This document shows, piece after piece, positions 11,446 to 28,424 of a stretch of DNA of 64,000 nt. Source of the DNA: Tomocerus qinae (lineage: Eukaryota > Arthropoda > Collembola > Entomobryomorpha > Tomoceridae); the NCBI GenBank assembly GCA_020055645.1, contig CM034546.1, positions 115,494,375-115,558,374 of the forward strand, written 5' to 3'. Every line of letters starts with the position of its first letter. Within the stretch, counting starts at the first letter, position 1. The notes under the pieces are model-generated. The model saw nothing but the letters and a program-made list of their open reading frames with translations, ran no database searches and was not told the DNA's origin. The position numbers and the translations under genes are program-made.

Positions 11446-11451
11446 AATAAC
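11446..11451. repeat. Polinton target-site duplication, left (AATAAC)
   Basis: AATAAC directly abuts the left inverted repeat and is repeated exactly at 28419-28424 outside the right one. Six base pairs is the duplication size expected for Polinton integrases. Confidence 0.9.
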
Positions 11452-11638
11452 AGTAGTAGGGGGAGGCAGTAGTAGCCCTCACCCCATCGCCATCTTGGAT
11501 TCTGAGGCTCGCACACTTATCCTCATAGCCTTAGGCACTCATGGAAGTACAGACACTAACCTTACTCTTATGCTTGCATAGTATTCCTCACCCCAAATTA
11601 TATTGACTTCTTACGCTCGCATACTTATCCTCATAGCC
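11452..11638 (+). repeat. Left terminal inverted repeat of Polinton, 187 bp
   Basis: It begins agtagtagggggaggcag and is identical to the reverse complement of 28232-28418. Similarity continues inward at a lower level. The repeat contains the first copy of a 108-bp subterminal unit. Confidence 0.93.
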
Positions 11639-11740
11639 AACGGCATTCATGGAAGTACAGGCACTAACCTAACTCTTACACTTGGTTAGTAGTCCTCACC
11701 CCATATCATCTTGATCACTCATATATTCAGTACCATACCC
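11521..11740. repeat. 108-bp subterminal tandem units, left end
   Basis: The word cctcatagcc recurs at 11521 and 11629, each time followed by a similar stretch (tcatggaagtacag, then cactaacct, then agt..tcctcacccca). This gives two units of about 108 bp, and the right end carries mirrored copies. Units like these may bind the terminal protein or replication factors, but that is inference. Confidence 0.75.
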
Positions 11741-12438
11741 TACAACTGAGGCAGGGTACATGTACACTCCCATGCTATATTATTACATCATTTACAACTT
11801 AAATGCGTGTGCACTATCACATTATATATATCGTATTCATATAAGTATATCTATAAGAATAAAAGGTCTAAAACAATAACATGCATTAAATAATATGATC
11901 AGGTACATGTATATACTTGTTTGATGAGGACGAACGTGTGTGGACACAACCACTGTAAGTATCTACGCGTCTCCAGTAAGGGTAAGCACAATCGATAAAG
12001 GTAGATGGGTGAGGATTAACGACAATGGCATGCAATGACAATCTAAGTATTTAAGGATACTTGATACGGTCGAGTATAAAGTATAAACAAGTAAATTTTA
12101 GGGACACATACGAAAATACACCCTTTTGGTACTTTGCAATATCAGTGCAATGGAAATAAGTTATTTCTGAAAGTGCAGCATACTTGAAACAAAAGAGCTG
12201 ATGAGACATTTAGTCAAATAATCCTTTCTCAGAAATACCTTTACATGAAAGGTTGTCTCTTTTATGTTTGTTACAACTTGCATGACTTATTTTTGAACTT
12301 GCACGAAGAATTGTACTAACAATAAATTCGTTTAAAAAGGCATTCAACCAAATGTAATCATTCATACCAATTTACTACTCCTAACCGCAATCATCTATCT
12401 TCAAAAGTTCTGTTCCTGTTACTACATACATTTTCAAA
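11741..12438. other. Polinton left noncoding region
   Basis: Noncoding A+T-rich stretch between the subterminal units and the polymerase gene. No open frame or repeat stands out. It presumably contains the polymerase promoter. Confidence 0.45.
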
Positions 12439-15400
12439 ATGGAAAATTGTCCTTTCTGCGAAGTAAACTTGGCTGGAAATTTCGAACAGCATTTTAAGCA
12501 GATTCACCAGTGTTCATCTTGTTTGAAGTTTAAAGAAGCTTGTCACTGCATTGGTAAATACTAAACAAAATATACCACATAATATTCTTCAATATTTAAA
12601 CTATTTTTTAAAACGTTTGACTAAACTATAGACTTAATAAAATGACTTCTTTATTTTCAGCGTGTCCAAAGTGTCCCCAAAATATTCAAGACACTTGATT
12701 TAATGGAAGACCATCTCCTTACGGACCACATCTGTTCTATCTGCGACGAAGACCAGCTATTATGCATCTGCGTTGAACAACTGGAGTCTCAATGTTTGGA
12801 TACAAGGAAACGTGGACGAGAAGATGAAGAAATCTCTTCTACAAGCAAGCGGCCGAAAATTTCAAATGTTTCCGGACATTCTGACTTAGTTCCCGTGTCA
12901 GCACAAGTTGACGATATTCAAGACCAGCGACATTCAGACAAAAATCCTGAAATTGTCAATGTAAGTCTTATAAGATCTAAGTATTGTCCTGCTTGTGACA
13001 TTGTTTTTTCATCAAGTCATAGTCTACAACTACATTTAGTTGAAACCCATCCAGACTTTTACTCAAATGTTGATTTTAATCAGGTAGGAATGGGTGGGGA
13101 GCACTTAGAATTAAACTTAGTTAAAAGTGCATTTGACATTTACCATGAATTCAATTGTAGTTTGGATCATGTAGTTGTCAAGGATATTCGTGGGATATTT
13201 CATAGTTTAAGAAATCAAATTTTATCAATATTTAGACATCATTTAGAGGAGTGGAGTACATTTAAGGTCCATTTTGATATAGTGGTTGGATTTAGTAAAA
13301 AACAACAGGATGATTCATTAATACACGACTCTAGACCATTTCCAGGTTTCATGTTTCCTGTTTTAAATATTGACAATGCAAAAATGTCTATTAAAGTTAC
13401 TAATGACCATTTTGCTGAAAGGCTTCAAGAACATGTAAGAAATGGATCAGGATGGAACATAGATAATATTAAGGAGTTTAAAATGACAATTGTAAAGTAT
13501 ATACCCTTGTGTGGGGGGAGAAAAAACATACCTTTACCAGATATCCTAAAAAGTAAAAACAAAACATTCGTTAATATCGCCGTTGATGACAACTTATGTT
13601 TTAAACGTGCAATATATGCCCATGAGAGTGTACACGGCAAGCAGGTGCATCCCAACAATGTAAATCGTACGTTAGAAAGCGTTAAATTTTATGAAGACAT
13701 ACTGGATAATGGAAAAGTCAACTGGAGTGGCATTGAATTTCCTTTCTCATTAAAACAAATATCAAAATTTGAAAGACAGAATCCTGAGATTGGACTTACA
13801 GTGATTGGTTTCTCGGAGGAATTTTTAGAAAAGCGTAAAAACATCAAAAACAAAGTTAGACGAGGAAAATAATTACGATGATATTATTGAGGCAGTGGCA
13901 ATTAGCGTCAGGGAAACGGACAAAGGGGAGGATAGCGATAGTGAGATTGACGAAAAGAAAACATATGGTCAAAAGCAGGCTGAAATAATTGATTATTGTG
14001 TTCCTTTGCATGTGTGTAAGGAAGATAGGTCAATTAAAATAGATTTACTATTAATAATGGATGATAATACAGAAGATCATTTTGTTTTCATTAAAGACCT
14101 ACCAAAATTGATCTATAAGGCACATTCCAAACATGTATGCCGCCACTGTCTTCAGGGTTTTAATGATGACTATGATGAACATGTCAAACATTGTTCTTCA
14201 CTTGATAGGATAAAAACAGTATTCCCAAAGCATAATTTTTGAAATTTGAAAAATTTGCACGCACTCAAAAGGCTCCATTTACTGTATCGGCAGATTTTGA
14301 ATCTTTCCTTAAACCTACAGGAAATTTTTAGAAATCAAAATAAGTGATAAAAACAAGAAAACACCAAACACTGTAAAAGTACAACTTCATAAAGCTAGTG
14401 GGTTTAGTTGGCGATGTATTAATTGGAAAGGCAAGCAAAAATGTAGCAGTTCATATAGGGTAGAAACCGAAACAGATGATGCGCCAAAACGATTTCTGAC
14501 AGAAATTTTAGCTCTCAATGAAGAATTACAGAGTGAAATGAAAGAATATGAAAAGGAAGCTAAAAAAACTATGATAATTAGGGAAGAAGACAACCAAAAG
14601 TTTAGAAATCCTCACAAACTATGCAGTACTAAATGCCATTTTTGTCACAAATGCTTTACTTTCAAGGATTTCAAGGAAAAGAAAATAGTTAGACATCATG
14701 AACATTTGCCGCCTTATAATTTCATTGGTTTTGCACACAGATCATGTAATATAGCGGCCTCTACACCCAAAACATTAACTGTATGCTTCCATAATTTACG
14801 AGGCTATGATGGGCACTATCTTATACAAGCAGCTTCTGAGGATCTTGTTAAAGAGGTTGAAGTTATTCCGCAAACATCGGAAAAGTTTATGAGCATCATT
14901 ATAAACAAACAGATCAAATTTATTGACACTGCACTCTTCATGCCTGAAAGTTTAGGAGATTTAGTTAAAGATCTAAAGGAATTTCCTATAACAAGGGAGG
15001 CATTTTCCCAATATAGCAAAGAACAAGTAGACTTACTTTTAAATAAGGGTGCATATCCATATTCTTATATGGATTCTGTTGACAAGTTTAAGGAGACAGA
15101 ATTACCGCCAAAATCAATCTTTGAAAATGATCTAACCGGTAAAGATATAGACGATGATGTGTATAGTAATGCTCAGAAAGTTTGGAAAGAATTTGGTATT
15201 AGAAATATGGGTGAATGGCATGATTTGTATTGTCAGCTAGATACCGCGCTTTTAGCAGATGTTTGGTTTTCACTGCGTAACACAATGTATGATAAGTATG
15301 GTCTTGATGTATGTCATTATTTCTCATTACCAATGTTTAGTTTAGATGCAGCACTAAAGTTTACAGGTGTGTCTTTAGAATTTATTAAAGATCCCACAAT

Positions 15401-15536
15401 GCATGTATGGCTAGAAGGTGCAATACGTGGAGGGTTAGTAAGTGCGGGAGATTTAAGAGTGGCAAAAGCAAACAATGAATATTGCCCTGATTATAACGAT
15501 AAGAAACCTTCTTCGTATATTATGTACTGGGACGCT

Positions 15537-17910
15537 GGAGTTGGGTTGAGTGAGTGCTTCAGAGTAGACGTGCTTGCCGATCTGTCCTGATAATTCTATT
15601 TACTACACTTGTACTTTATTTCGTTATATCTTTATCTCATCAATATTATTGTAAATTCTTATGTTATTGGTTAAACAACGCCACTACATTATATTAGTAG
15701 ATTTTTTAATGTATTTTTTGCTTCTAATGTAATGTAATACGTTCCCTCAAATTTTATAATTCCGTTATTGAAAATAACAATCCGCGAATCTGGTCACTAA
15801 ATCAGGTAACAACCAATCTATTTGTAAGTTAAAAAATGGCTAAATTTTGGACGAGGCTTATCTGTTTCAAACTTAAAATATATCACCAATTATGTACCTA
15901 GTGTAATGTGAATTTAAATTGTATTGTGAATTCACTGAAAAGGCAACTTGCCGACTATGATAGAAAATGAAAATTTGTATCATGCCATTTTAAAAATTTC
16001 ATTTTAAAGGAAATCTATCAATGAATTTTGTATTACTTTTCAACAAGATTTAAGATAAACATGCTTTATTTTCTTAAAGAAAAATCTTGGAAAAACGATC
16101 TACCAATAAGGTTTTCTGTGAATTCAAGAAAATGTGTAAGAAAAACGATTTACCTACTTTAAGATATTGGGAATTTAAAGAAAATGTGTCAACTAGTTTT
16201 TAAATTATTTTATTATTTTTAAGCAAGGTTTTGAGATACGCTGGTTTTATTACCTTAATGAAAAGTTTCATGAAAAAACGATTTACCTACTTTATAATAT
16301 TGGGAATTTAAAGAAAATGTGTCAACTAATTATGGATTATTTTAAGATTTTGTAAATTTAAAAGAAATGTGTCAATGAGTTTTGCATTATTTTTAAGCAA
16401 GGTTTTGAGATACAAAAGTCTCATGGAAAAACGATTTACCTACTTTAAGATTTTGTAAATTTAAAAGAAATGTGTCAATGAGTTTTGCATTATTTTTAAG
16501 CAAGGTTTTGAGATACGCTGGTTTTATTACCTTAATGAAAAGTCTCATGGAAAAACGATTTACCTACTTTAAGATTTTGTAAATTTACAAGAAATGTGTC
16601 AATGAGTTTTGCATTATTTTTAAGCAAGGTTTTGAGATACAAAAGTCTCATGGAAAAACGATTTACCTACTTTAAGATTGTGTAAATTTAAAAGAAATGT
16701 GTCAATGAGTTTTGCATTATTTTTAAGCAAGGTTTTGAGATACGCTGGTTTTATTACCTTAATGAAAAGTCTCATGGAAAAACGATTTACCTACTTTAAG
16801 ATTTTGTAAATTTAAAAGAAATGTGTCAATGAGTTTTGCATAAATTTAAAAGAAATGTGTCAATGAGTTTTGCATAAATTTAAAAGAAATGTGTCAATGA
16901 GTTTTGCATTATTTTTAAGCAAGGTTTTGAGATACGCTGGTTTTATTACCTTAATGAAAAGTCTCATGGAAAAACGATTTACCTACTTTAAGATTTTGTA
17001 AATTTAAAAGAAATGTGTCAATGAGTTTTGCATAAATTTAAAAGAAATGTGTCAATGAGTTTTGCATAAATTTAAAAGAAATGTGTCAATGAGTTTTGCA
17101 TTATTTTTAAGCAAGGTTTTGAGATACAAAAGTCTCATGGAAAAACGATTTACCTACTTTAAGATTTTGTAAATTTAAAGGAAATATATCAATGAGTTTC
17201 GCAATCAATAAATTTAGAGAAATTTGTCAATGATATACAATATGTTAAGCACTTTAAAACTTTATATATTAATAGAATATACGTTATTTAAATCATACAT
17301 ATACACTTCATGTCATGAAGCTATTTGCTATAGTTTTAAGCAAAATTTTTGTACCCTTGTCACCTTCAATTCTTTTATAAAAAATTAATTCGCTGACTTA
17401 GGATACTGTGCAAATGTAATATTCTCTCATGGAAATGCTGCAGAATATGCTAAGTAACAGAAAAATGTGCAGAATACATCTTCCCACGATTTTCAAACTA
17501 TTTTAATGGATCTTAACGGATATCAACTTACAAGGACGAGCTACTCTTTACTCTATCATCGCTGTAATAATATTCCAACGAATGAATTATTCAATGTAAT
17601 CTGTAACTATAATATTTGCCGTCTGATTGTGTTTTAGGTTTGGTCAGCCTATGTAATATATTTATCAATGTGAGATAAGTAACCACAACTCGAGTCATAT
17701 TAACTGTGCTACATTTTACAGCCTTAAATGTCTATGTTTACAATTTCTTCACACTCTTTAATCTGGTTATCGCCTTGTCAGCACTCACTCAGCCCAACTC
17801 CAAAGCATTAATTAAGATATAATATTAACAGTTGTGATAATTTTACGATGTAAGGACCACTGGTCACATCATCAAGAAATGAATAAATAATAATAATAAT
17901 AATAAAAATA
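15537..17910 (+). mobile_element. 2.4-kb retroposon-like insertion inside the Polinton polymerase gene
   Basis: The 15-bp word atgtactgggacgct occurs at 15522-15536 and again at 17911-17925, flanking this segment: a target-site duplication of the size made by LINE machinery. The right end is a (TAA)n-type tail (taataataataataataaaa), as in LINE-mobilised elements. A 21-bp inverted repeat, ggagttgggttgagtgagtgc at 15537-15557 versus 17781-17801 (20 of 21 match), brackets most of the segment. It has no coding capacity; the centre is a nested minisatellite. Best read as a nonautonomous SINE-like or composite element; the family is not recognised. It is younger than the Polinton. Confidence 0.78.
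16230..17190. repeat. Nested minisatellite, 124/103-bp units with inner 34-bp repeats
   Basis: The word acgatttacctac recurs at 16431, 16555, 16658, 16782, 16974 and 17145, giving spacings of 124, 103, 124, 192 and 171. The 103-bp form lacks the 21-bp block gctggttttattaccttaatg. The 192 and 171 spacings equal 124 and 103 plus two extra 34-bp units (taaatttaaaagaaatgtg, then tcaatgagttttgca) in tandem. The copies are nearly identical, so expansion was recent. Related but more diverged copies begin near 16080. Confidence 0.88.
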
Positions 17911-19401
17911 ATGTACTGGGACGCTAATAATTTGTACGGTCATGCATTAAGTGAGTATTTACCTCATAACGGGTATAGATGGGCAACTGATGAAGAGTTA
18001 GAAGAGATAAGAAAAGATCCGAAAGGTTATATCTTGAACATGAAAGATAATCAGAAAACATGTATGTTTTTTGAGGTAGACATGATTATCCCTGATGATA
18101 AACACGACTTTTTAAATGCATATCCACCCGCACCAACATCTAGGATTGTAGATGATAAAGAAATATCATGTATGCAGCATGAATTGGCTGATATGTTAGG
18201 GGTAGAAGTTGATGGTAAACAAAAACGGCTGATTGCTGACTTGAAAGACAAAGAAGGATATGTTTGTCATTACAGGGCTTTAAAGAACTTACTTAAAATT
18301 AGGCGCTGAAATCAAATATGTAAGAAAAGTTATGGTTTGCAATCAAAGTCAATGGATGAAGCCTTTTGTCGCTGAAAACACCAAAATGCGCACTTTGGCT
18401 ACAAGCGAAATCGAAAAAAGGTTTTGGAAACTTTTAAATAACACAGGGTACGGGAAGCTTATTGAACAAAAAAGACAAAGAACTAAAATGCATGTAGTTC
18501 TCAATAAAGAAAAAGGTCTTAGATTAAATAGTAGACCAAACGTTGCTCATTCATCAATTATAGACGATAAAATTGTCTTATTGACCATGAAGAAAATGCA
18601 AGTTACTCTTGATCGACCAATAGCAGCTGGTGTTGCAGTGCTAGATATTAGTAAGACTACAATGTTCAACTTTCATTATGACTTTATAGCAAAGACATAT
18701 CCTGGCAAACACAACTTGTTATATACTGACACTGACAGTCTTATTTATCTGATAGAAACAGAAAATGCTTATGATGACTGTCAAAAGTATGAGAATGACT
18801 TTTTTGATATGTCTGATTACAAACCAAATGATGTAGTTTTAGGAAAATATCACAATGCGGTTAACAAAAAACGATTAGGTTTCTTCACTGATGAATCACC
18901 AAATGCTGTTATTACAGAATTTGTTTGTACTAAACCAAAGTCATATTGTTGTCGTAGTATAAAAACAGCTGATATTTTCAATAATACAGGCGAATATGGT
19001 ACAAAGAAAAGATTAAAAGGAGTTAGCAGAAGTGCAGTCGAAAACGATATTGTTTTTGATCATTTTGTAGACGCAATGTGTCCAGACAATTTCTTGAACG
19101 CACAAACCTTTGCGGTAAGTAAGTCTCTGCGTAGTTTCTTACACCAAATGTACACAATCGAGAGTAGAAAAAAAGCTATTAATGGTCTAGATGTTAAAAG
19201 ATATTCTCCCGACGGGATTGTTACTCTAGCATATGGTCATAAAGATATAAAATTGTATGAACAAAATGATTTTGATGTTAATATTGATGTAAATACTTGT
19301 GAAAAAGAGTAGAAAGACTAGTCTAATTTAACTTGCTTCAATGTACAAAAAATGTATATAATCATTGAATCAATGAAAATAAACTTAGTATTCGTTTAAC
19401 C

Positions 19402-20076
19402 ATGGCCATGTTCAGTTCAATGTTTCTTAATCCTGAGGATTGTCCTGTATTTGACTATACTCTTAAAGCACCATTTTGCATGACTATAGCTGGACAGACA
19501 CAATCAGGAAAATCAACGCTGACTACAAAAATATTACAAAGAAGAGATGAAATCATAATTCCTCGCATAGATCATGTAATGTACTGTTATACTGCATTTC
19601 AACCTGGACTCTTTGGTCACCTAAAGGATACAGTCCCTGGTATCAAGTTTCATCAAGGTTTACCAGCTGATTATGGTAGCTCTCTTCCAGGACACAAATT
19701 GGTCATTCTTGACGATTTGATGTGTGATGTCAGTGGATCAGCAGATGCCATCAAAGCATTTACAATCACATCCCATCATCATAATGTCTCTATCATTCTA
19801 CTTGTCCAAAATTTGTTTTTTAAACAATTGCGGGATTTGGTGCTGCAAAGTAAATATATTTGTGCAATGAAAAATCCAAGAGATAGCGTAGCTATCAAAA
19901 CTCTCGGAAGGCAAATGAATGGCGACAAAACTAATAAAGTTGTTGATGAAGCCAGTAAAGATGTCATGAAAAAACCATATGGATACTTAGTTTTAGATTA
20001 TGCGCAAACACAAAATGATGATTACAGAGTCAGAGATTCTATTTTTCCAGAAGATTGTACCGTTTATTTACAATAA
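19402..20076 (+). CDS. Polinton packaging ATPase, A32-like (fossil element)
   Basis: 224 residues, open throughout; it looks whole. The Walker A motif GQTQSGKST is near residue 30 and the Walker B motif LVILDDLM near residue 97, as in FtsK/HerA-type packaging ATPases of Polintons and nucleocytoplasmic DNA viruses. In that family the enzyme drives the element's DNA into a capsid. It follows the polymerase on the same strand by about 90 bp. Confidence 0.9.
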   Translation: MAMFSSMFLNPEDCPVFDYTLKAPFCMTIAGQTQSGKSTLTTKILQRRDEIIIPRIDHVMYCYTAFQPGLFGHLKDTVPGIKFHQGLPADYGSSLPGHKLVILDDLMCDVSGSADAIKAFTITSHHHNVSIILLVQNLFFKQLRDLVLQSKYICAMKNPRDSVAIKTLGRQMNGDKTNKVVDEASKDVMKKPYGYLVLDYAQTQNDDYRVRDSIFPEDCTVYLQ

Positions 20077-20080
20077 TAAA

Positions 20081-20446
20081 TCAATTTGTTACATCACAAT
20101 CCATTGTTGTATAACCTTTTACATTATTTAGATGTATACTTATATTGGCATCCAAATTATCTAAAGATTCTCTTTGTATTGCTAACATCTGCATGGCTAG
20201 GGAATGTAGCATTGTAGGGTTGAAAAAGACAATATTTGCCTGTCCGTTAGAAATTTGCTTCATCTTGATGACAGGTTCAAACGTGTTTGGTAATATATCA
20301 TGACTTATAGAAACTGGTGGCACACATGATTGTACAGGTTCCATCTTCATCTTGATACAGGTGACCGCACGGTCTATGCGAAGCATATATATCCAAAGGA
20401 TAAGGTTATGCAGAGCATAGAGTATGCCTACGGCATATATATCCAA
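20081..20446 (-). CDS. Polinton hypothetical protein (fossil element)
   Basis: Minus-strand frame of up to 121 codons, convergent with the ATPase (stops only a few bases apart). The C-terminal half (NIVFFNP, then LHSLAMQMLAIQRESL) looks like genuine protein. The N-terminal part runs into the 50-bp repeats, so the true start is probably internal. Not recognised. Confidence 0.5.
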   Translation of the reverse strand: MDIYAVGILYALHNLILWIYMLRIDRAVTCIKMKMEPVQSCVPPVSISHDILPNTFEPVIKMKQISNGQANIVFFNPTMLHSLAMQMLAIQRESLDNLDANISIHLNNVKGYTTMDCDVTN

Positions 20447-20548
20447 AGGATAAGGTTATGCAGAGCATAGAGTATGCCTACGGCATATATATCCAAAGGA
20501 TAAGGTTATGCGAAGCATAGAGTATGCCTTCGGCATAGATACCTGTGG
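20366..20548. repeat. 50-bp tandem repeat inside Polinton
   Basis: The word atccaaagga followed by taaggttatg recurs at 20391, 20441 and 20491, giving a period of exactly 50 bp over about three and a half units. The units include the small palindromic blocks tatgcctacggcata and tatgcgaagcata. A short G+C block follows at about 20559-20590 (a C run, then gccgccgccgcc), which is unusual in this A+T-rich element. Confidence 0.85.
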
Positions 20549-20604
20549 CTAATAAGATCCCCCCCCCCCGGGGAGCCGCCGCCGCCGCCTCAAGGGATGC
20601 GTAT

Positions 20605-20856
20605 TCAGATTTTCGTTAAAGTAATGTTATGGTGGTCCAAAGACTGATAAATTGAGTACTTGCAAAATATTGTAAATATGAATAGTACTACCAAGATGAC
20701 AAAATATATGAAATTTATGAAATTAAAATTTGATGAAGTATTTTCTATGGTGTCTACTGTCACAATATGAGAGAAATTATGAGATGAGTTGTTATCGCTA
20801 CAACTATCCATTGTGAAATGAGAGAACGAAATCAGATAGTTTTGGTATTTATACAT
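20605..20856 (-). CDS. Polinton small membrane protein (fossil element)
   Basis: Frame of 83 codons. An internal Met (MDSCSDNN, about residue 16) is the likelier start, giving about 68 residues. One hydrophobic segment (FINFIYFVILVVLFIFTIF) is a clear single-pass membrane helix. Small membrane proteins are common in Polintons and adintoviruses. The role is unknown. It looks whole. Confidence 0.5.
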   Translation of the reverse strand: MYKYQNYLISFSHFTMDSCSDNNSSHNFSHIVTVDTIENTSSNFNFINFIYFVILVVLFIFTIFCKYSIYQSLDHHNITLTKI

Positions 20857-20876
20857 TTATTTTCAAAGTAAAAGAG

Positions 20877-21287
20877 TTAATAATCAGTAGGAATTAATAC
20901 ACAGCAACGCTTATTGTTAATTGTGTCCACGTCTTCTAGAGGACGTTTAAGTCCTGAAGTTTGACATTCATCAAGGGACAAGTTGTCTTCATTATTAGAA
21001 GGTACATAAGTGGGCCATGTAGGTACTGCAGGTACATTCATTTTCTGGTATTGGTTAAACTTAGACATAATAAATGGAAGTTCATGATTACAAATATGAA
21101 ATTGATATATTTTCTTCTCCAAAGTTGTTCTCTCCAAACGAAATCCTGCTAGGCGACCATCAGAAAGTTTAAGTTTGTGGACCTTGACCCCTCCAAAGCA
21201 GACAGACGGAAATGAATTTTCATAAGGAAAATAATTCTGATTTTGCTTGTAAACGTCCAGAAATGATTCCAACATGAGTCTCTTCAT
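20877..21287 (-). CDS. Polinton hypothetical protein (fossil element)
   Basis: 136 codons on the minus strand (opening MKRLMLESFLDVYKQ). The middle looks globular, with KLSDGRLAGFRLERTTLEKK, and a basic RPLEDVDTINNKR stretch sits near the C-terminus. Not recognised. It lies in the minus-strand cluster of small genes between the ATPase and the integrase. Confidence 0.55.
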   Translation of the reverse strand: MKRLMLESFLDVYKQNQNYFPYENSFPSVCFGGVKVHKLKLSDGRLAGFRLERTTLEKKIYQFHICNHELPFIMSKFNQYQKMNVPAVPTWPTYVPSNNEDNLSLDECQTSGLKRPLEDVDTINNKRCCVLIPTDY

Positions 21288-21315
21288 TAGGTCATCAAGA
21301 GCATTCAGATTGCAG

Positions 21316-21831
21316 TTAAAGTACTGGACCTGGATTCCATCTAATTTTTCTCTTTAAATGTATAAATACATTATCAGATACTTTGTTGAATGAGATTGTT
21401 AGTTGTCCAAATTGAGTTTCCCAATCATAGACTCCATATCGTCCATCATAATAGGCGCTGATGACGTGACGTTCTTGTTGTTCGTCAGCTGAGTTTTGTT
21501 TTTCCTCCTCCGTGTTCTGCATCGTTGACGACGTGTCAGAATTTGAACTTTCCGACAAAGACCCGGGGAAAGTATTATCCGTAGATTTCTCAATATTTGT
21601 GGCTGCAATCTCGACTGCTGTAACTGCGGTTGATGTTGCGGTTGGAACTGCGGTTGTTGCGGTTGAGACTGCGGTTGCTGCGGTTGGAACTGCGGTTGTT
21701 GTGGTTGAGACTGCGGTTGCTGCGGTTGAGACTGCGGTTGCTGCGGTTGAGATTGCGGTTGAGTCTGCAGTCGCTGCGATTGAGTCTGCAGTCGCTGCGA
21801 TTGAGATCTCTGGGACTTTTGTGATTTCCAT
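21316..21831 (-). CDS. Polinton hypothetical protein with Ala/Thr/Val repeat (fossil element)
   Basis: 171 codons. The first half is a simple repeat of TAATAVS-type units, an 18-21-bp DNA repeat on the gcggttgctgcggttgagact theme. It is followed by an acidic Ser/Glu linker and a globular-looking tail (HVISAYYDGRYGVYDWETQF). The same DNA in a second minus-strand frame reads as a Gln/Pro repeat. Role unknown. Confidence 0.55.
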   Translation of the reverse strand: MEITKVPEISIAATADSIAATADSTAISTAATAVSTAATAVSTTTTAVPTAATAVSTATTAVPTATSTAVTAVEIAATNIEKSTDNTFPGSLSESSNSDTSSTMQNTEEEKQNSADEQQERHVISAYYDGRYGVYDWETQFGQLTISFNKVSDNVFIHLKRKIRWNPGPVL

Positions 21832-22057
21832 CGTAAAAGATTGTAGTGGAGTTGGTTAGCCAGGATGAAGACTGTTTGAGAGTTGTAGAAGTTGTGATGG
21901 CTAGATTGAGAATGCTAGCAACTTTTATACCAAAAAACTTGACCCAAAATGGTAGACACGAATGAAATTAACGAAAAACTTTACCAGGAATAGATTTCTG
22001 AGTAAAGAATATTCGCTTTATAGGTTAAATAGTAGTAACTATGCACACGATACTATC

Positions 22058-22273
22058 TTAATTTAAGGGGATTAACAAACGTTTCTTCAAAATAGGAACG
22101 AGAATAGTTTCTAAAGCCGTAATTCTATCCTTAAATCTACACCTGTCAATGTAAAAATATTCCCAGTATCTCTGACGTGTTTCATCATGTTCAGGGATTA
22201 GAAAGGTGTGTACATGTTCCTGGAAATGCACACGTCTATTTTTGTTACCACTTTTTAAAATCGTTAATTCCAT
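22058..22273 (-). CDS. PPP1R15/GADD34-like PP1-binding protein in Polinton (fossil element)
   Basis: 71 codons, open throughout; it looks whole. Residues 14-17 (RVHF) fit the RVxF docking motif for protein phosphatase 1. They are followed, at the family's spacing, by a tryptophan (W37) and the block DRCRFKDRI (43-51), which matches the ARDRxRFxRRI block of PPP1R15 proteins. The C-terminus (ETILVPILKKRLL) also follows the family pattern. In animals PPP1R15A/B bring PP1 to phosphorylated eIF2-alpha and restore translation. Short viral relatives of about this size (such as DP71L of asfarviruses) consist of this domain alone. The adjacent gene overlaps its start by 29 bp. Family assignment rests on motif order and spacing seen by eye; the activity is inference. 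Confidence 0.8.
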   Translation of the reverse strand: MELTILKSGNKNRRVHFQEHVHTFLIPEHDETRQRYWEYFYIDRCRFKDRITALETILVPILKKRLLIPLN

Positions 22274-22577
22274 TGTGACGTAGATATAGAAGTACGTATT
22301 TAAAATTATCGGTATGTATTTCCTTTCTTATACTTTTATTGTTTATATTATACAGTACAAATACTTTGCGTACTATATCATAAAAGACAACAATGTCCTC
22401 AGTTAACTTGATTGAAATTTCAAATTCTGAAGGAATATAACTGTTTGTATAATTAATATAGTTTGCACTGTTGGAGTTTTGAACACAGCACTGACAAATA
22501 CACTTATTACACGTAAATGCACAAGATTGTTTTCTTATTTTGCAGAACGACTGAAAGAAGTTTCGGAAGAAAGACAT
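22245..22577 (-). CDS. Polinton cysteine-rich hypothetical protein (fossil element)
   Basis: 110 codons. The N-terminal part has a tight cysteine cluster (CAFTCNKCICQCC), possibly metal-binding or palmitoylated. The rest is a small acidic/hydrophobic domain. It overlaps the start of the PPP1R15-like gene by 29 bp, which suggests the two are expressed together. Not recognised. Confidence 0.55.
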   Translation of the reverse strand: MSFFRNFFQSFCKIRKQSCAFTCNKCICQCCVQNSNSANYINYTNSYIPSEFEISIKLTEDIVVFYDIVRKVFVLYNINNKSIRKEIHTDNFKYVLLYLRHNGINDFKKW

Positions 22578-22610
22578 GATGACAACTAAAAATTTATTGT
22601 CTAGGTATCT

Positions 22611-23562
22611 TTACTTATATGATTTTTGTAGCTCTTGTTTGTAGTATCCTCCCTTTATGTCATGGCCATTACTGTCTTTTAAATAATACATTGGTGGGTT
22701 ACACTCTTTAACCGCACGAACGTAATACACTTCTTCTCCAAAGTATGTAGAGTATCCTTTTTCAAAAATAGATTTGTCTTTTATTTTAAGAACCGCGTCA
22801 CCGACTTTGAACCACAATTTTATTTTCTTTGCGGTTTTTAAATTTCCGTATAGATTTTGCCACACATCGTTTTCATTCATTTTGTTGACTTGCATTGGTG
22901 TCATTTTTATACTACGATGATATGAATTGTTGTAGAGTTTTTCAAAGTCTTTTAGCTTATTAATGAAACGTTTAGTTTTGTTTTCTGTCATGTACCGCGA
23001 AATTATTTGTCCAATGGTTCGAAAAAACCGTTCTGCAATACAGCATTTCATTGGTGAATTAACAACAAAATGATTTATTTTGTGTAATGAGGTTAACTTT
23101 TTCATTTTTGAGTTTATAAATTCAGTCCCCAAATCTGATTGCAAGTGTCTGCATACTCGTTTTGTTCTTTTAAGTATTTTGTTAAATGCAGTTACAACTG
23201 TGATTGCATTTTTATTTGGTAATGCATTTTTATTGCATTTTTATTTGGTAACCTAACCAAGCTACTTTTGAGAATACGTCAACTACACATAATATATAAT
23301 TCTTTCTGTAATTAGATTTACTCCATCTTCTCATATCTAGCAAATCTGTGGCCCATTGGTCATCAATCCCCTCTACAACAACACGTCTTCTTTTGAATCG
23401 TCTTGGAGCGGGAAAGTGTAAAAAATAGCCAGGAATATTAGATAGAGACCGTTTCACTAAATCTTTCTTGTACTTAACTTTGGAATTTTTTAAAAAACCA
23501 GAAAGGCTAGAGTAGGATCCTGGTAATTTTACATTAGTATACTGCTTAGTAACCTTCTCCAT
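22611..23562 (-). pseudogene. Polinton integrase region (fossil)
   Basis: Retrovirus-like DDE integrase: the core shows the WATDLLDM strand with the first catalytic Asp and, further on, the SDLGTEF and AERFFRTI segments of the second Asp and Glu region. A small barrel-like C-terminal domain (WFKVGDAVLKI) follows. In Polintons this enzyme inserts the excised copy and makes 6-bp target duplications. The region is broken (about one break). Confidence 0.85.
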
Positions 23563-23668
23563 TGCTGTTTAATTGGTAAATGAAACTATATTTAGAAAAC
23601 ATTTACTTATATCCAAGACATTTCAAATTTCAGCTCACTTGCAAATTAGCAATGGTACTGTAAACATC

Positions 23669-24004
23669 ATGGTGAAACGAATCAAAACAAATCAAGCATT
23701 CCTTAGGAATTATTTGAAAGCTAACAAAAAGTATAAAAAGGAACTTTTATCCATCGCAACAACAGAACAAATTTGTTCTCTCTGTGAAGCTACATTAAAC
23801 GTAGTTAATAAAAACGTTCCAATTAATAATTCACAAATACAAAGACTGAAAAAGTCTGAAAAAGTCATAAAAAAGATTTGTTTTGACAAAAAAGTGCCAT
23901 TGGAAAAGAAGAAGAAAATACTGATTCAACACGGAGGTGCATTTCTACCAATTATATTGTCATCTGTACTTGGCCTTTTGGCAAATAAAATTTTGGGGGC
24001 ATAA
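23669..24004 (+). CDS. Polinton small protein with C-terminal hydrophobic tail (fossil element)
   Basis: 111 residues from the ATG at 23669, chosen over an upstream frame extension because MVKRIKTNQAFLRNY is the natural-looking start. It has a basic, helical body (KKYKKELLSIA, then KKVPLEKKKKILIQHGG) and a glycine/leucine-rich end (FLPIILSSVLGLLANKIL). This layout is common in Polintons and recalls adenovirus membrane-lytic or core peptides. Its stop overlaps the next start (TAATG). It looks whole. Confidence 0.6.
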   Translation: MVKRIKTNQAFLRNYLKANKKYKKELLSIATTEQICSLCEATLNVVNKNVPINNSQIQRLKKSEKVIKKICFDKKVPLEKKKKILIQHGGAFLPIILSSVLGLLANKILGA

Positions 24005-24864
24005 TGGTTAAGAGAATGCGATTGGTACCAGAATCTGCGTTCCAACAGATAATGCAGACTGTCAATATTCCTCCTCAAGACAATATATTAAACAGCAAGT
24101 TACCTGATGACGTAAAACTTTTACTATATCAGGAACAAGCAAGAAACTTGTATCAAAAAAGGGAGAATGCTAAAAATAGACCAATTTTGGTCAAAAATGT
24201 TAATTCAGTTGCTATTGACAAACCAGTAAGTGAATCTAATGTTGAAAGTGAAGACACTGAAGATGAAGTGACTGCTTCCAATGAGATTGATGAAGATGCA
24301 ATGCACGAGACGGTATCTACTAATAATAGAAAAAGAAGTTTAAACATAGATTCTGTAGACCAGCCTAAATCTAAAACCGGAAAGATTCAAAAGAAGAAGA
24401 AGGATAAACGTAGCATTCATGACGATCGCCTATATCCTGAAAACACACCGTTTTATTCAAAAAAACTTACTCCCGTTGAACCATGGCTTCTACAGCGTAA
24501 ACCATTAATTATTCCTGGTTTAAAAAGAGGAAAGAAAAATGGTGTGACAGATACTGGGGAAGATGACAAGTGGGAGGATTATGTTGAGGGTTTGACTAAG
24601 ACAGAAAGAAAAAAGTTAAAATTGGCTCCATTACACGAAAGGGATGATCTAGTGGGAAGTCACAATGTTTACAAAAGACAAAATACGGCAAAAGTTATGA
24701 TTGACAAGAAGTTTAAATCAGGTGCAGCATCCTACAATGTGATTAAAGGACGAAGGTATGAACCTACAAAAACAGCTAATGTGCGTATGGTACCAACAGA
24801 TGATGTTACTTTGCGTAAAAGTTACAGATTAAAGAAAAGAATTGATCGTTGGGAGGCATATTAA
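24004..24864 (+). CDS. Polinton hypothetical protein, 286 residues (fossil element)
   Basis: It overlaps the preceding gene by one base (TAATG), suggesting coupled expression. The N-terminal third is helical, the middle is a charged, disordered linker with a basic run (KKKKDKRSIHDD), and the C-terminal part is basic with KWEDYVEGLTKTERKKLKL. Likely a structural or DNA-associated protein. The family is not recognised. It looks whole. Confidence 0.6.
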   Translation: MVKRMRLVPESAFQQIMQTVNIPPQDNILNSKLPDDVKLLLYQEQARNLYQKRENAKNRPILVKNVNSVAIDKPVSESNVESEDTEDEVTASNEIDEDAMHETVSTNNRKRSLNIDSVDQPKSKTGKIQKKKKDKRSIHDDRLYPENTPFYSKKLTPVEPWLLQRKPLIIPGLKRGKKNGVTDTGEDDKWEDYVEGLTKTERKKLKLAPLHERDDLVGSHNVYKRQNTAKVMIDKKFKSGAASYNVIKGRRYEPTKTANVRMVPTDDVTLRKSYRLKKRIDRWEAY

Positions 24865-24942
24865 TTTGATTTCATTTTATTTTCAATTTCTTATAATTAC
24901 AACATTTTTGAAATAAATAACGATTAAACAAATATAACCGTT

Positions 24943-25377
24943 TTACAATTTTATCATTTTTTGCATGTTTTTAGAAAATCCACAATATACAGACATAATA
25001 TTTTGTCCACGCATCCTTTTATACAAATAGTGTATTACATATAAACCGCATACTGTAGAATTTACATCTTGCAAGCATACTTTGTTTTCCAATACAGTCA
25101 TTTTCATCCTCTTGGCAAAATTTCGAAAGTTGGCTGCATAAAAGTCGATTCCCATTCCAAAAGAGCAAAAGAAGTTTAATGGTCCATTTGATTTTGCAAT
25201 AAAAATTCCAAGCCAATGTTCTCCAGCTTCCGTAATTGGCTGATTATTTACACAAAGACAGACTGGATAGGTAGACACTCTTAAGGTATCCAACTCGTCA
25301 CAGGCCATAACTTTGTATGTACATTTTCTACCTTTAAATAACTTGGTCAACATCGCATAAATTTGATTGGTATCCAT
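24943..25377 (-). CDS. Polinton adenovirus-type cysteine protease (fossil element)
   Basis: 144 residues; it looks whole. It has the adenain/Ulp1-like order: EHWLGIFI with the catalytic His, FFCSFGMGIDFY (strand and family Asp region), then LQDVNSTVCGLYVIHYL with Gln and the nucleophilic Cys. In Polintons this enzyme is thought to mature capsid proteins. It sits beside the capsid genes, as usual. Confidence 0.88.
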   Translation of the reverse strand: MDTNQIYAMLTKLFKGRKCTYKVMACDELDTLRVSTYPVCLCVNNQPITEAGEHWLGIFIAKSNGPLNFFCSFGMGIDFYAANFRNFAKRMKMTVLENKVCLQDVNSTVCGLYVIHYLYKRMRGQNIMSVYCGFSKNMQKMIKL

Positions 25378-25480
25378 ATTTAAAATTCCTTAGAGTAGTC
25401 TTTTTTGTACACTTGTTTGTCACTGTTCACGTACAATACTGATTGATATTCAGCATAGCATACTACAGTTATACTTTCTG

Positions 25481-26838
25481 CTAGGGCTTTTTGAATCTCA
25501 GATTAATTGAAATATTTCCATGTCGTGGAGGAGAGAACGCATCTCTTACATTACGAAAATCGTAAACAAAAAGTGCTTTTCCGTTTTTATATTCATCCTT
25601 TGTAATATCAATACAGCTGTCACAATTGGCTAGTCCCATGCCCTCAAACATTGACATATATGCCTGGACAAAACGATTGTTGGAAAAATCGACATCCATT
25701 GATTTGCATACGTGTACCTCTCCATTCATTTTTACTGTGATGTTGGACATGTCAAAATCTTCAAAGCATAAAGGATTTGTTCCATATGTGCCATTGATAC
25801 TCAAACTTTGTACTAACCCCAATACGATTCTATCAGGTAGTAGCCCTGACAATAGAGTTTCGTTTGTATGTTGTAATTGACCTTTAGGAATTGCATATGT
25901 CTTCATTTCATTTTCTCGTTGAGGGTATACAACATTATGACCACTATTCCAAATTTTAATGTGTTGAAGTGATAGTGATGGTAGTAGGGCATGTTTAACC
26001 ACTATTAATTTTGATTCCAGTATGACTAATTGAGGTTTATATTTAGAAATATCCGTACCATACATTTGAATACAAAATTCGTCAGAAGATCGATAAAAAT
26101 CCATGCGTACATCAATTCCAGGGATAAGAAATCTTGGTTGTGAGAATAGCTCACTATGAGGTCTGATCATTATTTCAAATTCTTTAGAACTTTCAATCAA
26201 TTTTGATCGTTTATCCCATCCATCGTCTTGAACGCCATTCTTTTCACTTTTGGTTTTCACAAGCATTGCTGCTTGTCCCTGAGTTTTCTTATATTCTTTT
26301 CCATAAGACAACATTTTTTCAAAAATGGCCCGATAGGGATAATATGGATTTTGTGTAAAATTTCATTATCTTTGTATTTAGTTACAATACTGGATATCAT
26401 TGAATGTCCAAAGTTATTTACAGGAGCATAGACAATCTTTACTGGATCAAATGCTGGTAAATCAATGGGAGGTGACTTACTACCGTCTACAAATTTACAT
26501 CGCTGAAGTAATTTAGACTCACTAAAGTCTGTGTAATGTATATCATTACCAGGTATGTAAAAAGATATTGGAGCACCTTTATCACTAATATTATTTTGTG
26601 GATGGTACTCGACTTCATAGCTGTGAGTTATACTCAAGTCATATCCGGGCTCAGAAAAGAGATCCGTTTCGGCACGAATAAAATTAATGGTAGGCTTTTG
26701 TTGGGGTTTTGGTGGCATTTTTGTAAAATATGGATATCCTTTTCCGGACAACTTTTTTCTTTGAAGATTTTTTAACTTTTTGCTTTTTATTAGGACGAGA
26801 GACTGATTTATTCGACTTCCTCTTCCTTGAACAACCAC
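25481..26838 (-). pseudogene. Polinton major capsid protein region (fossil)
   Basis: Double-jelly-roll major capsid protein of the Polinton/adintovirus type. Readable segments include FIRAETDLFSEPGYDL, ISFYIPGNDIHYTDF, PIDLPAFDPVKIVYAP and a C-terminal GNISINLRF, all typical of these capsids. The region is broken (about one break). Confidence 0.82.
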
Positions 26839-27090
26839 TACCAGACTGATTCATGACATCATTTTTCACATCATAATATACAGATTTTGCTGCATTCTTG
26901 CCATGTGTTCTTACACTCTCTCCAAAATTATATCCATTGATGACGTCCGTAGCAACATTTCTAATGGCTTCTTTTGCATGGGGCAGTACATACTTTTTTG
27001 CTGCAGGTAGTACATATTCCTTAGTGAAAGGGAGTAATTTTCGTAGAAATGTACCAAATATACCCCTAAGCCAGACCCCGTTGTCTTAAC
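26684..27090 (-). CDS. Polinton basic core-like protein region (fossil)
   Basis: Minus-strand sequence immediately upstream of the capsid gene reads as a small basic protein: a hydrophobic Gly/Phe-rich start (IFGTFLRKLLPF), a block AKEAIRNVATDVINGYNFGES, and a strongly basic tail (KKQKVKKSSKKKVVRKR). This block order is common to Polinton pVI/pX-like minor proteins. The exact ends are uncertain, and the 3' end overlaps the capsid gene. Confidence 0.6.
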
Positions 27091-27240
27091 ATGGAAGACT
27101 TATAATACATCAACCCACTTCCAATTTGAGGGTGGACATATTCGAAAAAATCATTTGGATTATTTTCGTGAGAATACATATTGAGATGTGTGTCTGTCAA
27201 CGTCTAAATCGGAACTGAAGGGTAATATTTATTGTTGGTA

Positions 27241-27975
27241 TTAATATCTCTTTCGCCGGAAATGAAGTTGTGCACAAAAATTACCAAATGTAAATGGCAA
27301 GTTTTCACCCGATTCAGACTTGATATAAATATGAATCTTTTCAATATTATTGGATGCCACATTCATATAAGTTGGATTGTCAATTGTCTTGGTTGTTGGA
27401 TGTCTGTCTACACCTTCATAGTTTTCTATGAGCATTAATGGTGCTAAAGTGTCACCAACGTATTGTGGCTTTACGAGATTTGAGTAGATATGTATTCTTG
27501 TTAGACCTGTATGGAAGTACGGTTCGAATGTAGTCAAAACTAACGTTTTATTATTTCTGTATCCATTTTCTTTCAAGGGAGCCCCAATCATCGTTTTTAT
27601 CTTAGGGTGAATTTCAAATTTAGTGTAATAACTCCAGTCCATTTCCAATTCCAAAAGATTTTCGTCTTTATAAACACATTGTAAGGCTTCGTGCTGACCG
27701 AGTTCAGTAATCAGTTCTTTTATATTGAAGACACGTTTGCTGGTGGTAATTATTATAGGTGTATTGTCTTTTCTACGTGTAACAATGTATAGTGGATGAT
27801 CTTTTTCAATAAAATGTCTGGTATATATGTATGAATACTTGGTTATAGCAACTTCGTATATATCATCTTCCAAATCAATTGGACTATGTAAATGATTTTT
27901 AAAATTTGATATTGTATTATCGGGGAAATAATCCGCAGATGCATCACTCATAACAGTGTGATAAAAGCTGTCCAT
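27241..27975 (-). CDS. Polinton minor (penton) capsid protein (fossil element)
   Basis: 244 residues; it looks whole. The start MDSFYHTVMSDASADYFPDN and the later PIDLEDDIYEVAITKYSY match the single-jelly-roll penton proteins of Polintons, which begin with a conserved F-x-x-T-L-x-S-N/D-S-type segment. The C-terminus NFCAQLHFRRKR also fits that family. Encoded next to the core-like and major capsid genes. Confidence 0.82.
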   Translation of the reverse strand: MDSFYHTVMSDASADYFPDNTISNFKNHLHSPIDLEDDIYEVAITKYSYIYTRHFIEKDHPLYIVTRRKDNTPIIITTSKRVFNIKELITELGQHEALQCVYKDENLLELEMDWSYYTKFEIHPKIKTMIGAPLKENGYRNNKTLVLTTFEPYFHTGLTRIHIYSNLVKPQYVGDTLAPLMLIENYEGVDRHPTTKTIDNPTYMNVASNNIEKIHIYIKSESGENLPFTFGNFCAQLHFRRKRY

Positions 27976-28231
27976 GTTGACTACTTGAAGGATTAATGAA
28001 GACTAAGCTCTGAATGTTGAGGAATTTATATTATATTGAAATTATTTTAAGATCTAAGATTATATATGACTGTTATAGGTATGGTTGCTACTATATAAGG
28101 GTTAAGGTTAGGTTAGTACCTGTACTACCATGAATTGCTATGGTTATGACTATCCAAGCATACAGTGAGGGTGAGGATTACTATCCGAGCATAAGGGATT
28201 AGGTTAGTGACTGTGCTTGATGAGTGCCGTA
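27976..28231. repeat. Polinton right subterminal region with diverged 108-bp units
   Basis: Between the penton gene and the right inverted repeat lie further diverged copies of the subterminal unit (ggttaggttagtacctgtac near 28091 and attaggttagtgactgtgc near 28198, with ggtgaggattactatcc between). The right end therefore carries more units than the left. Confidence 0.7.
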
Positions 28232-28418
28232 GGCTATGAGGATAAGTATGCGAGCGTAAGAAGTCAATATAATTTGGGGTGAGGAATACTATGCAAGCAT
28301 AAGAGTAAGGTTAGTGTCTGTACTTCCATGAGTGCCTAAGGCTATGAGGATAAGTGTGCGAGCCTCAGAATCCAAGATGGCGATGGGGTGAGGGCTACTA
28401 CTGCCTCCCCCTACTACT
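28232..28418 (-). repeat. Right terminal inverted repeat of Polinton, 187 bp
   Basis: Exact reverse complement of 11452-11638. It ends ctgcctccccctactact and is followed at once by the second AATAAC. Confidence 0.93.
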
Positions 28419-28424
28419 AATAAC
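28419..28424. repeat. Polinton target-site duplication, right (AATAAC)
   Basis: Same six bases as 11446-11451, directly abutting the right inverted repeat. Confidence 0.9.

Follow-up and report, generated by a model that had tools for sequence, protein, structure and literature searches.

A probable stand-alone PPP1R15 (GADD34/CReP) core gene in one Polinton clade of the collembolan Tomocerus qinae

A Polinton in the genome of Tomocerus qinae carries a small minus-strand gene that is probably a captured stand-alone PPP1R15 (GADD34/CReP) core, kept as a working gene by one Polinton clade, whose product would direct PP1, together with actin, to eIF2-alpha. It is still debated whether Polintons are transposons or integrated viruses, and GADD34/PPP1R15 is the protein by which animals, and some viruses, resume translation once stress has shut it off. 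All coordinates given without a locus name refer to the window, the whole stretch of 64,000 nucleotides of contig CM034546.1 that was analyzed.

Results

The Polinton and its genes

The element at 11452-28418 is a Polinton, with 199-nt terminal inverted repeats (11452-11650 and 28220-28418, 99%), ends of the form AG...CT, and a 6-bp target site duplication, AATAAC, at 11446-11451 on the left and 28419-28424 on the right. The plus strand holds a DNA polymerase B region that lies in pieces between 12646 and 19312 (12646-13872, 13829-14242, 14313-15590, 17887-18309, and 18284-19312), and only the piece at 14313-15590 matched DNA_pol_B_2 over the cut-off (E = 2.9e-9). The PolB frame is broken by an insert of ~2.2 kb at 15536-17802, which has 23-nt inverted ends (96%). 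An A32-like packaging ATPase follows on the same strand at 19369-20076 (Pox_A32, E = 3.8e-5, over the cut-off).

On the minus strand, the two frames at 22611-23568 (22611-23240 and 23230-23568 in the window copy; rve E = 0.13, weak) are presumably the Polinton integrase, a name that we take from the general anatomy of such elements. Likewise, the two frames at 25481-26850 (25481-26362 and 26257-26850) are probably the major capsid protein, again on our assumption of Polinton anatomy. The frame at 25481-26362, which is the piece of the capsid candidate that was searched, found 11 metagenomic homologues with a best identity of 65%, none of them functionally named. A candidate adenovirus-type protease is located at 24943-25389 (minus strand; Peptidase_C5 E = 0.019, under the cut-off). 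The window Polinton is damaged, its polymerase, integrase, and capsid frames being broken. Weak immunoglobulin-domain matches adjoin the element.

A 71-codon gene of PPP1R15 descent

The PPP1R15/GADD34-core gene occupies 22058-22273 on the minus strand and consists of 71 codons and a stop, its start being the first Met of an 89-residue stop-to-stop frame. The coordinates, strand, and codon count given for this gene inside the Polinton by the first-pass annotation are correct. The peptide has 14 residues before V15 and carries RVHF at residues 14-17, a tryptophan at residue 37, and DRCRFKDRI at residues 43-51. Upstream, a minus-strand ORF of 109 aa with no assigned function (22245-22574) shares its last 29 nt with the start of the gene; the N-terminal part of this ORF is cysteine-rich. 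Downstream, and also on the minus strand, lie an ORF of 171 aa with tandem repeats (21316-21831) and an ORF of 158 aa with no assigned function (20877-21353).

The Pfam family suggested by the first-pass annotation, PP1c_bdg (PF10488), matched residues 10-56 of the peptide with a significant E of 1.9e-5, although the score of 24.9 bits lies 1.2 bits below the curated cut-off of 26.1; PDB sequences and a control profile agree with the match. In the PDB sequence search at E <= 10, the peptide retrieved PPP1R15B twice (7.6e-4 and 1.1e-3) and DP71L (3.7e-3) and no other entry. The control profile comprised seven non-Polinton PPP1R15 rows, namely the host gene, a human piece, and five of six metagenomic proteins, with the stand-alone core P0014 omitted. 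Over 1455 window frames of at least 25 residues, this profile gave the candidate 57.0 bits (E = 1.2e-16) and the runner-up 5.8 bits, and 20000 shuffled versions of the peptide stayed at or below 13.9 bits, so that a chance motif is rejected; these scores are to be read with the fact that the five metagenomic rows were found via an alignment containing Polinton copies, three of them carrying a precomputed PF10488 label. Moreover, 12/12 members of alignment A1 matched PF10488 at E <= 1.

In the far larger search of the 334-Mb genome with the Pfam model, the window copy scored 21.4 bits (E = 0.031). At E <= 10, this search returned 33 matches with E from 0.031 to 0.97, none over the cut-off; 32 of them are Polinton copies, and the one exception lies at C2:19290028. 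A single-sequence search of 5.8 billion proteins with the peptide gave no candidate, PHROGs held no match to it, and no relative was found in phage records. Viral contigs were scanned with an integrase piece, a polymerase piece, the peptide, alignments A1 and A2, and the capsid alignment A3, and gave no confirmed relative. Judged by homology together with the conserved functional residues described below, the 71-residue frame can be identified as a descendant of PPP1R15.

Copies of the gene and their neighborhood

When the genome (334 Mb, 115 contigs) was searched with the peptide, 40 matches were obtained at E <= 0.001. Querying with a member of the most distant subfamily (E <= 10) led to the same places and added two decayed pieces at one of them. 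By identity to the window copy, three subfamilies can be distinguished: A (~71-100%), B (~50-58%), and C (two copies at 51.5%). We counted a copy as open if it was open from the aligned Met for at least 55 codons, which holds for 34/40 (61-82 residues), and these copies are the basis of the residue counts. The six matches left out are L035, which has a six-residue deletion beside the RVxF motif, L037 and L056, which have early stops, and L036, L055, and L057, in which the match stops short of the Met. At L057, several decayed gene pieces stand in a row (1170-1724), as if a tandem duplication had preceded decay.

The surroundings of the gene are kept as well. In the 3.3-kb stretch around each copy, window included, the upstream 109-aa ORF was found in 38/40, the integrase in 36/40, and the downstream 158-aa ORF in 37/40. 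The same gene thus stands nearly always at the same place in related Polintons, which is what the first-pass annotation had proposed to look for; neither of the two outcomes that it had named beforehand as speaking against its reading, lack of a profile match and absence of the frame from relatives, occurred. The 29-nt overlap offset is also present in the A, B, and C copies compared (L020, L038, and L053), although the 109-aa neighbor itself is only ~40% identical between the groups. Around the start codon, position -3 is a purine and position +4 is G in 36/36 fetched copies with an aligned Met, and the Polinton core contains no intron. The 171-aa neighbor is largely a tandem repeat of 21/42-nt units, with repeats at 21622-21807; of the B and C copies, only the decayed L057 has a match to it, whereas the adjoining genes do match.

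Functional residues and predicted structure

Sections of Chen et al. (2015, eLife, PMC4394352) list for PPP1R15B the RVxF pair V641/F643, the phi-phi pair Y650/I652, the Arg-site residue R658, and W662, F672, and I676. Changes at R658, W662, F672, and I676 weaken actin activation, the last residues of the core are tied to actin, and the F and I changes in PPP1R15A were the weaker ones in vitro and made little or no difference in cells (sections of PMC4394352). By spacing, the counterparts in the Polinton peptide are V15, F17, F24, I26, R33, W37, F47, and I51. The earlier observation that RVHF, a spaced tryptophan, and DRCRFKDRI follow the order and spacing of PPP1R15 is borne out by the counterparts of V641, F643, R658, W662, F672, and I676.

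Among the 34 open copies, the RVxF pair is intact (V15 34/34 and F17 34/34), and the Arg-site residue R33 is invariant (34/34), standing four residues before W37 with the spacing of R658 and W662. W37 itself is found in 33/34, with C in one copy. In the block that follows, D43, F47 (W+10), and R50 are each present in 34/34 and R46 in 33/34, and position 51 (W+14) is I in 19 and V in 15 copies. The first phi-phi residue is variable and differs between subfamilies (F24 in 17/34, C in 15, and R in 2), and the second, at position 26, is I in 19 and V in 15. The C-terminal tail is short, unlike other PPP1R15 tails. Overall, the functional PPP1R15 residues are preserved in 33-34 of the 34 open copies, one phi-phi residue excepted.

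This pattern bears on a reading in which the product, though descended from PPP1R15 and still recruiting PP1, now serves a substrate other than eIF2-alpha, for example an element-encoded phosphoprotein. In favor of this reading, the PP1-docking residues V15, F17, and R33 are invariant while the first phi-phi residue varies between subfamilies; the C-terminal tail is also unlike that of the host protein. However, the stretch after W37 is equally conserved (D43, F47, and R50), and this stretch, which in PPP1R15 lies beyond the PP1-bound part, is linked in sections of PMC4394352 to actin and substrate choice. We consider a change of substrate unlikely and retain eIF2-alpha as the probable target.

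The predicted model, built from a 7-row alignment, has a mean pLDDT of 67, with an extended or loose N-terminal half and one helix at residues 29-65; the block-mean pLDDT is 92 and 88 at residues 41-60. The PPP1R15 core is said to be unstructured alone (sections of PMC4394352), and the predicted model agrees with this, as weak evidence.

Purifying selection between subfamilies

Selection was tested on codons 10-62, outside the overlap, in 21 open copies (10 A, 10 B, and 1 C; 19 distinct). The pair values cover all A-A, A-C, and B-C pairs and a random quarter of the A-B and B-B pairs. Between subfamilies, pS was 0.70-0.98 versus a pN of 0.21-0.35. Among the B-C pairs, 4/10 had a finite dS, with dN/dS of 0.10-0.14, and 6/10 were saturated. 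In three pairs, reading either of the alternative frames abolished the pattern (pN 0.36-0.46, pS 0.15-0.43), and the true-frame differences in these pairs concentrate at third positions (Fisher p of 3.2e-4, 7.8e-5, and 3.0e-7). Near-saturated synonymous sites with little protein change between subfamilies, seen in the true frame only, demonstrate purifying selection. Within subfamily A, dN/dS exceeded 1 in 4/28 pairs, none of which had more than 2.5 synonymous changes, and one pair lacked them altogether.

These values also decide on the notion of a dead host exon, captured by chance and functionless for the element. It could accommodate the 6/40 matches with an early stop, an alignment that does not cover the start region, or a deletion next to RVxF, as well as the two of 34 open copies without W37 or R46. 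Yet synonymous near-saturation with low protein change and the third-position excess speak against it, the neighbors and the overlap are conserved, and 34/40 matches are open through the core. The selection signal between subfamilies leads us to reject a dead exon, to which we assign a probability close to nil.

The host PPP1R15 gene and the origin of the Polinton core

The exceptional genome match at C2:19290028 (PF10488 E = 0.33) shares 44% identity with the window peptide across 36 residues. It is the last exon of a two-exon host PPP1R15 gene (L058:4972-5181), with the junction KKK|VRF at a phase-0 intron. The host gene (L058 4160-5184) is very short, with 127 residues read from the two exons. 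The exon join is supported by the metagenomic protein P0013, of 129 residues, which matches both host exons in line. In both mammalian genes, the core is on a separate exon (Chen et al., sections of PMC4394352).

Of the tree of host, viral, and Polinton versions that the first-pass annotation had suggested, we built one of host, Polinton, human, and metagenomic cores, 22 in all. The 14 Polinton rows formed one group (89/92), distinct from that of the host gene, P0013, and P0016 (87/72), and the human piece, P0017, and P0018 split from the rest (93/94); this is a weak tree of 82 columns, with long branches and 11/19 inner forks open. The Polinton gene is separate from the host's own PPP1R15 and, on the evidence of this tree, did not arise by recent copying of the present host gene.

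The existence of a separate host copy also speaks against a gene that serves host and element jointly, for instance in host tolerance of the element under stress, with the copies partly under host selection. Such service would be in keeping with the 34/40 copies that stay open and with the harm that loss of PPP1R15 causes in flies (sections of PMC10743859). But the signal of selection is seen between lineages of the element that have their place and neighbors in common, as expected of an element gene. We regard joint service as very improbable and prefer a gene that works for the Polinton.

Distribution among the Polintons of the genome

The integrase query of the genome gave at least 137 matches, fragments counted separately (150 of 174 candidates scored). 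The genome is rich in Polintons of several families, and many of their frames are open. We inspected 20 further loci, of which L068-L073 belong to the same integrase clade and are without a match to the gene, L074 is a known copy, and L075-L087 belong to other families, with integrase identities of 34-40%. At these 13 loci of other families, no frame rose above noise against the core profile, ~3 kb past the integrase having been read in 12 and only ~0.8 kb in L086. The whole-genome peptide searches likewise had no match at the 13 loci.

Within the clade, the integrase or the upstream neighbor is cut or interrupted before the gene site in L068, L070, L072, and L073. In L071, most of the first part of the integrase is missing, and no block follows the integrase. 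In L069 (1500-4235), the integrase is intact and immediately adjoins an ATPase frame, and the block with the PPP1R15-like gene is absent. In the integrase tree (36 distinct rows, 43 loci), all gene-bearing rows fall in one clade (100/99), which also includes L068, L069, and L072. This tree requires three label changes, perhaps one gain and two losses. L069 may either have lost the gene or have branched off before the gain, and the integrase tree fits both.

Discussion

By analogy with known members of the family, the product of the gene would bind PP1 and actin, dephosphorylate eIF2-alpha, and benefit the element. It would wrap along PP1 via the RVxF pair V15/F17 and the Arg-site residue R33, while W37 and the following helix (F47 and I51) would bind G-actin. 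PP1, the product, and G-actin would then form an eIF2-alpha holophosphatase that takes the phosphate off Ser51 of eIF2-alpha, and translation could continue while host kinases respond to element replication.

A core of ~70 residues suffices to repress the stress response in cells (sections of PMC4394352). Mammalian PPP1R15 proteins are long, and the viral and invertebrate ones have the core in common with them (sections of PMC10998612). Two findings speak against the reading: on the eIF2 trimer, the efficiency of the core alone is about one tenth that of an extended protein, and the core is weaker in cells (sections of PMC10998612); and, according to sections of PMC8633803, the C-terminal region is enough for PP1 and not for eIF2-alpha/substrate recruitment. 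The short Polinton form fits this host, because the host's own 127-residue PPP1R15 has little beyond the core.

The proposal of the first-pass annotation that some Polintons carried anti-defense genes can now be put as a strong inference for one clade in one genome, the anti-shut-off role being read from the family. More broadly, there is a fair probability that Polintons of animals carry a dedicated counter to the host eIF2-alpha shut-off, gained a single time, at the base of one clade or close to it, and selected through three subfamilies, and that they meet antiviral signaling as replicating viruses do rather than as quiet transposons. A selected gene whose relatives undo the host stress or antiviral response suggests that the element is expressed during host translation shut-off, in a virus-like manner. 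The 71-residue protein is directly testable, and it is a new lineage in which to study the origin of stand-alone viral PPP1R15 cores.

The novelty claimed at the outset agrees with open-literature searches, which covered main texts or titles, with the adintovirus description outside their scope, and which found no PPP1R15-like gene described in a Polinton or Maverick. Related terms are absent from the main text of a preprint on gene transfer among animal viruses, and the word 'phosphatase' is absent from the vertebrate Maverick paper PMC8097293.

Compared with known elements, the Polinton in the window has the polymerase, A32 ATPase, inverted ends, and 6-bp duplication in common with Polintons/Mavericks and adintoviruses. 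Compared with animal PPP1R15 (GADD34/CReP), the host's included, its gene has the same RVxF V and F, Arg-site R, and W, and then the F/D/R/I block. The host PPP1R15 and the Polinton gene also have an R-x-x-YWE-x-F-x-ID stretch in common, and in the tree of host, Polinton, human, and metagenomic cores, the Polinton core groups with the type found in the host and the human piece is separate (93/94). However, the host gene encodes 127 residues in two exons, with the split immediately ahead of VRF, whereas the Polinton gene is an intronless core of 61-82 residues with a short tail. P0014, a metagenomic protein of 67 aa on a contig of 2571 bases, is a stand-alone core of matching length, and it matched the profile with E = 7.6e-13. 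The stand-alone viral relatives DP71L, ICP34.5, and granulovirus gp036, as named in sections of PMC4394352, likewise have a core of ~70 residues, in line with the size comparison that the first-pass annotation made for the 71 residues of the Polinton gene. Those relatives reside in DNA viruses, whereas here the gene is carried by a Polinton. Like the stand-alone viral PPP1R15 genes, it comprises the core alone, with no long N-terminal part, in a virus-like element with PolB, an ATPase, and inverted ends.
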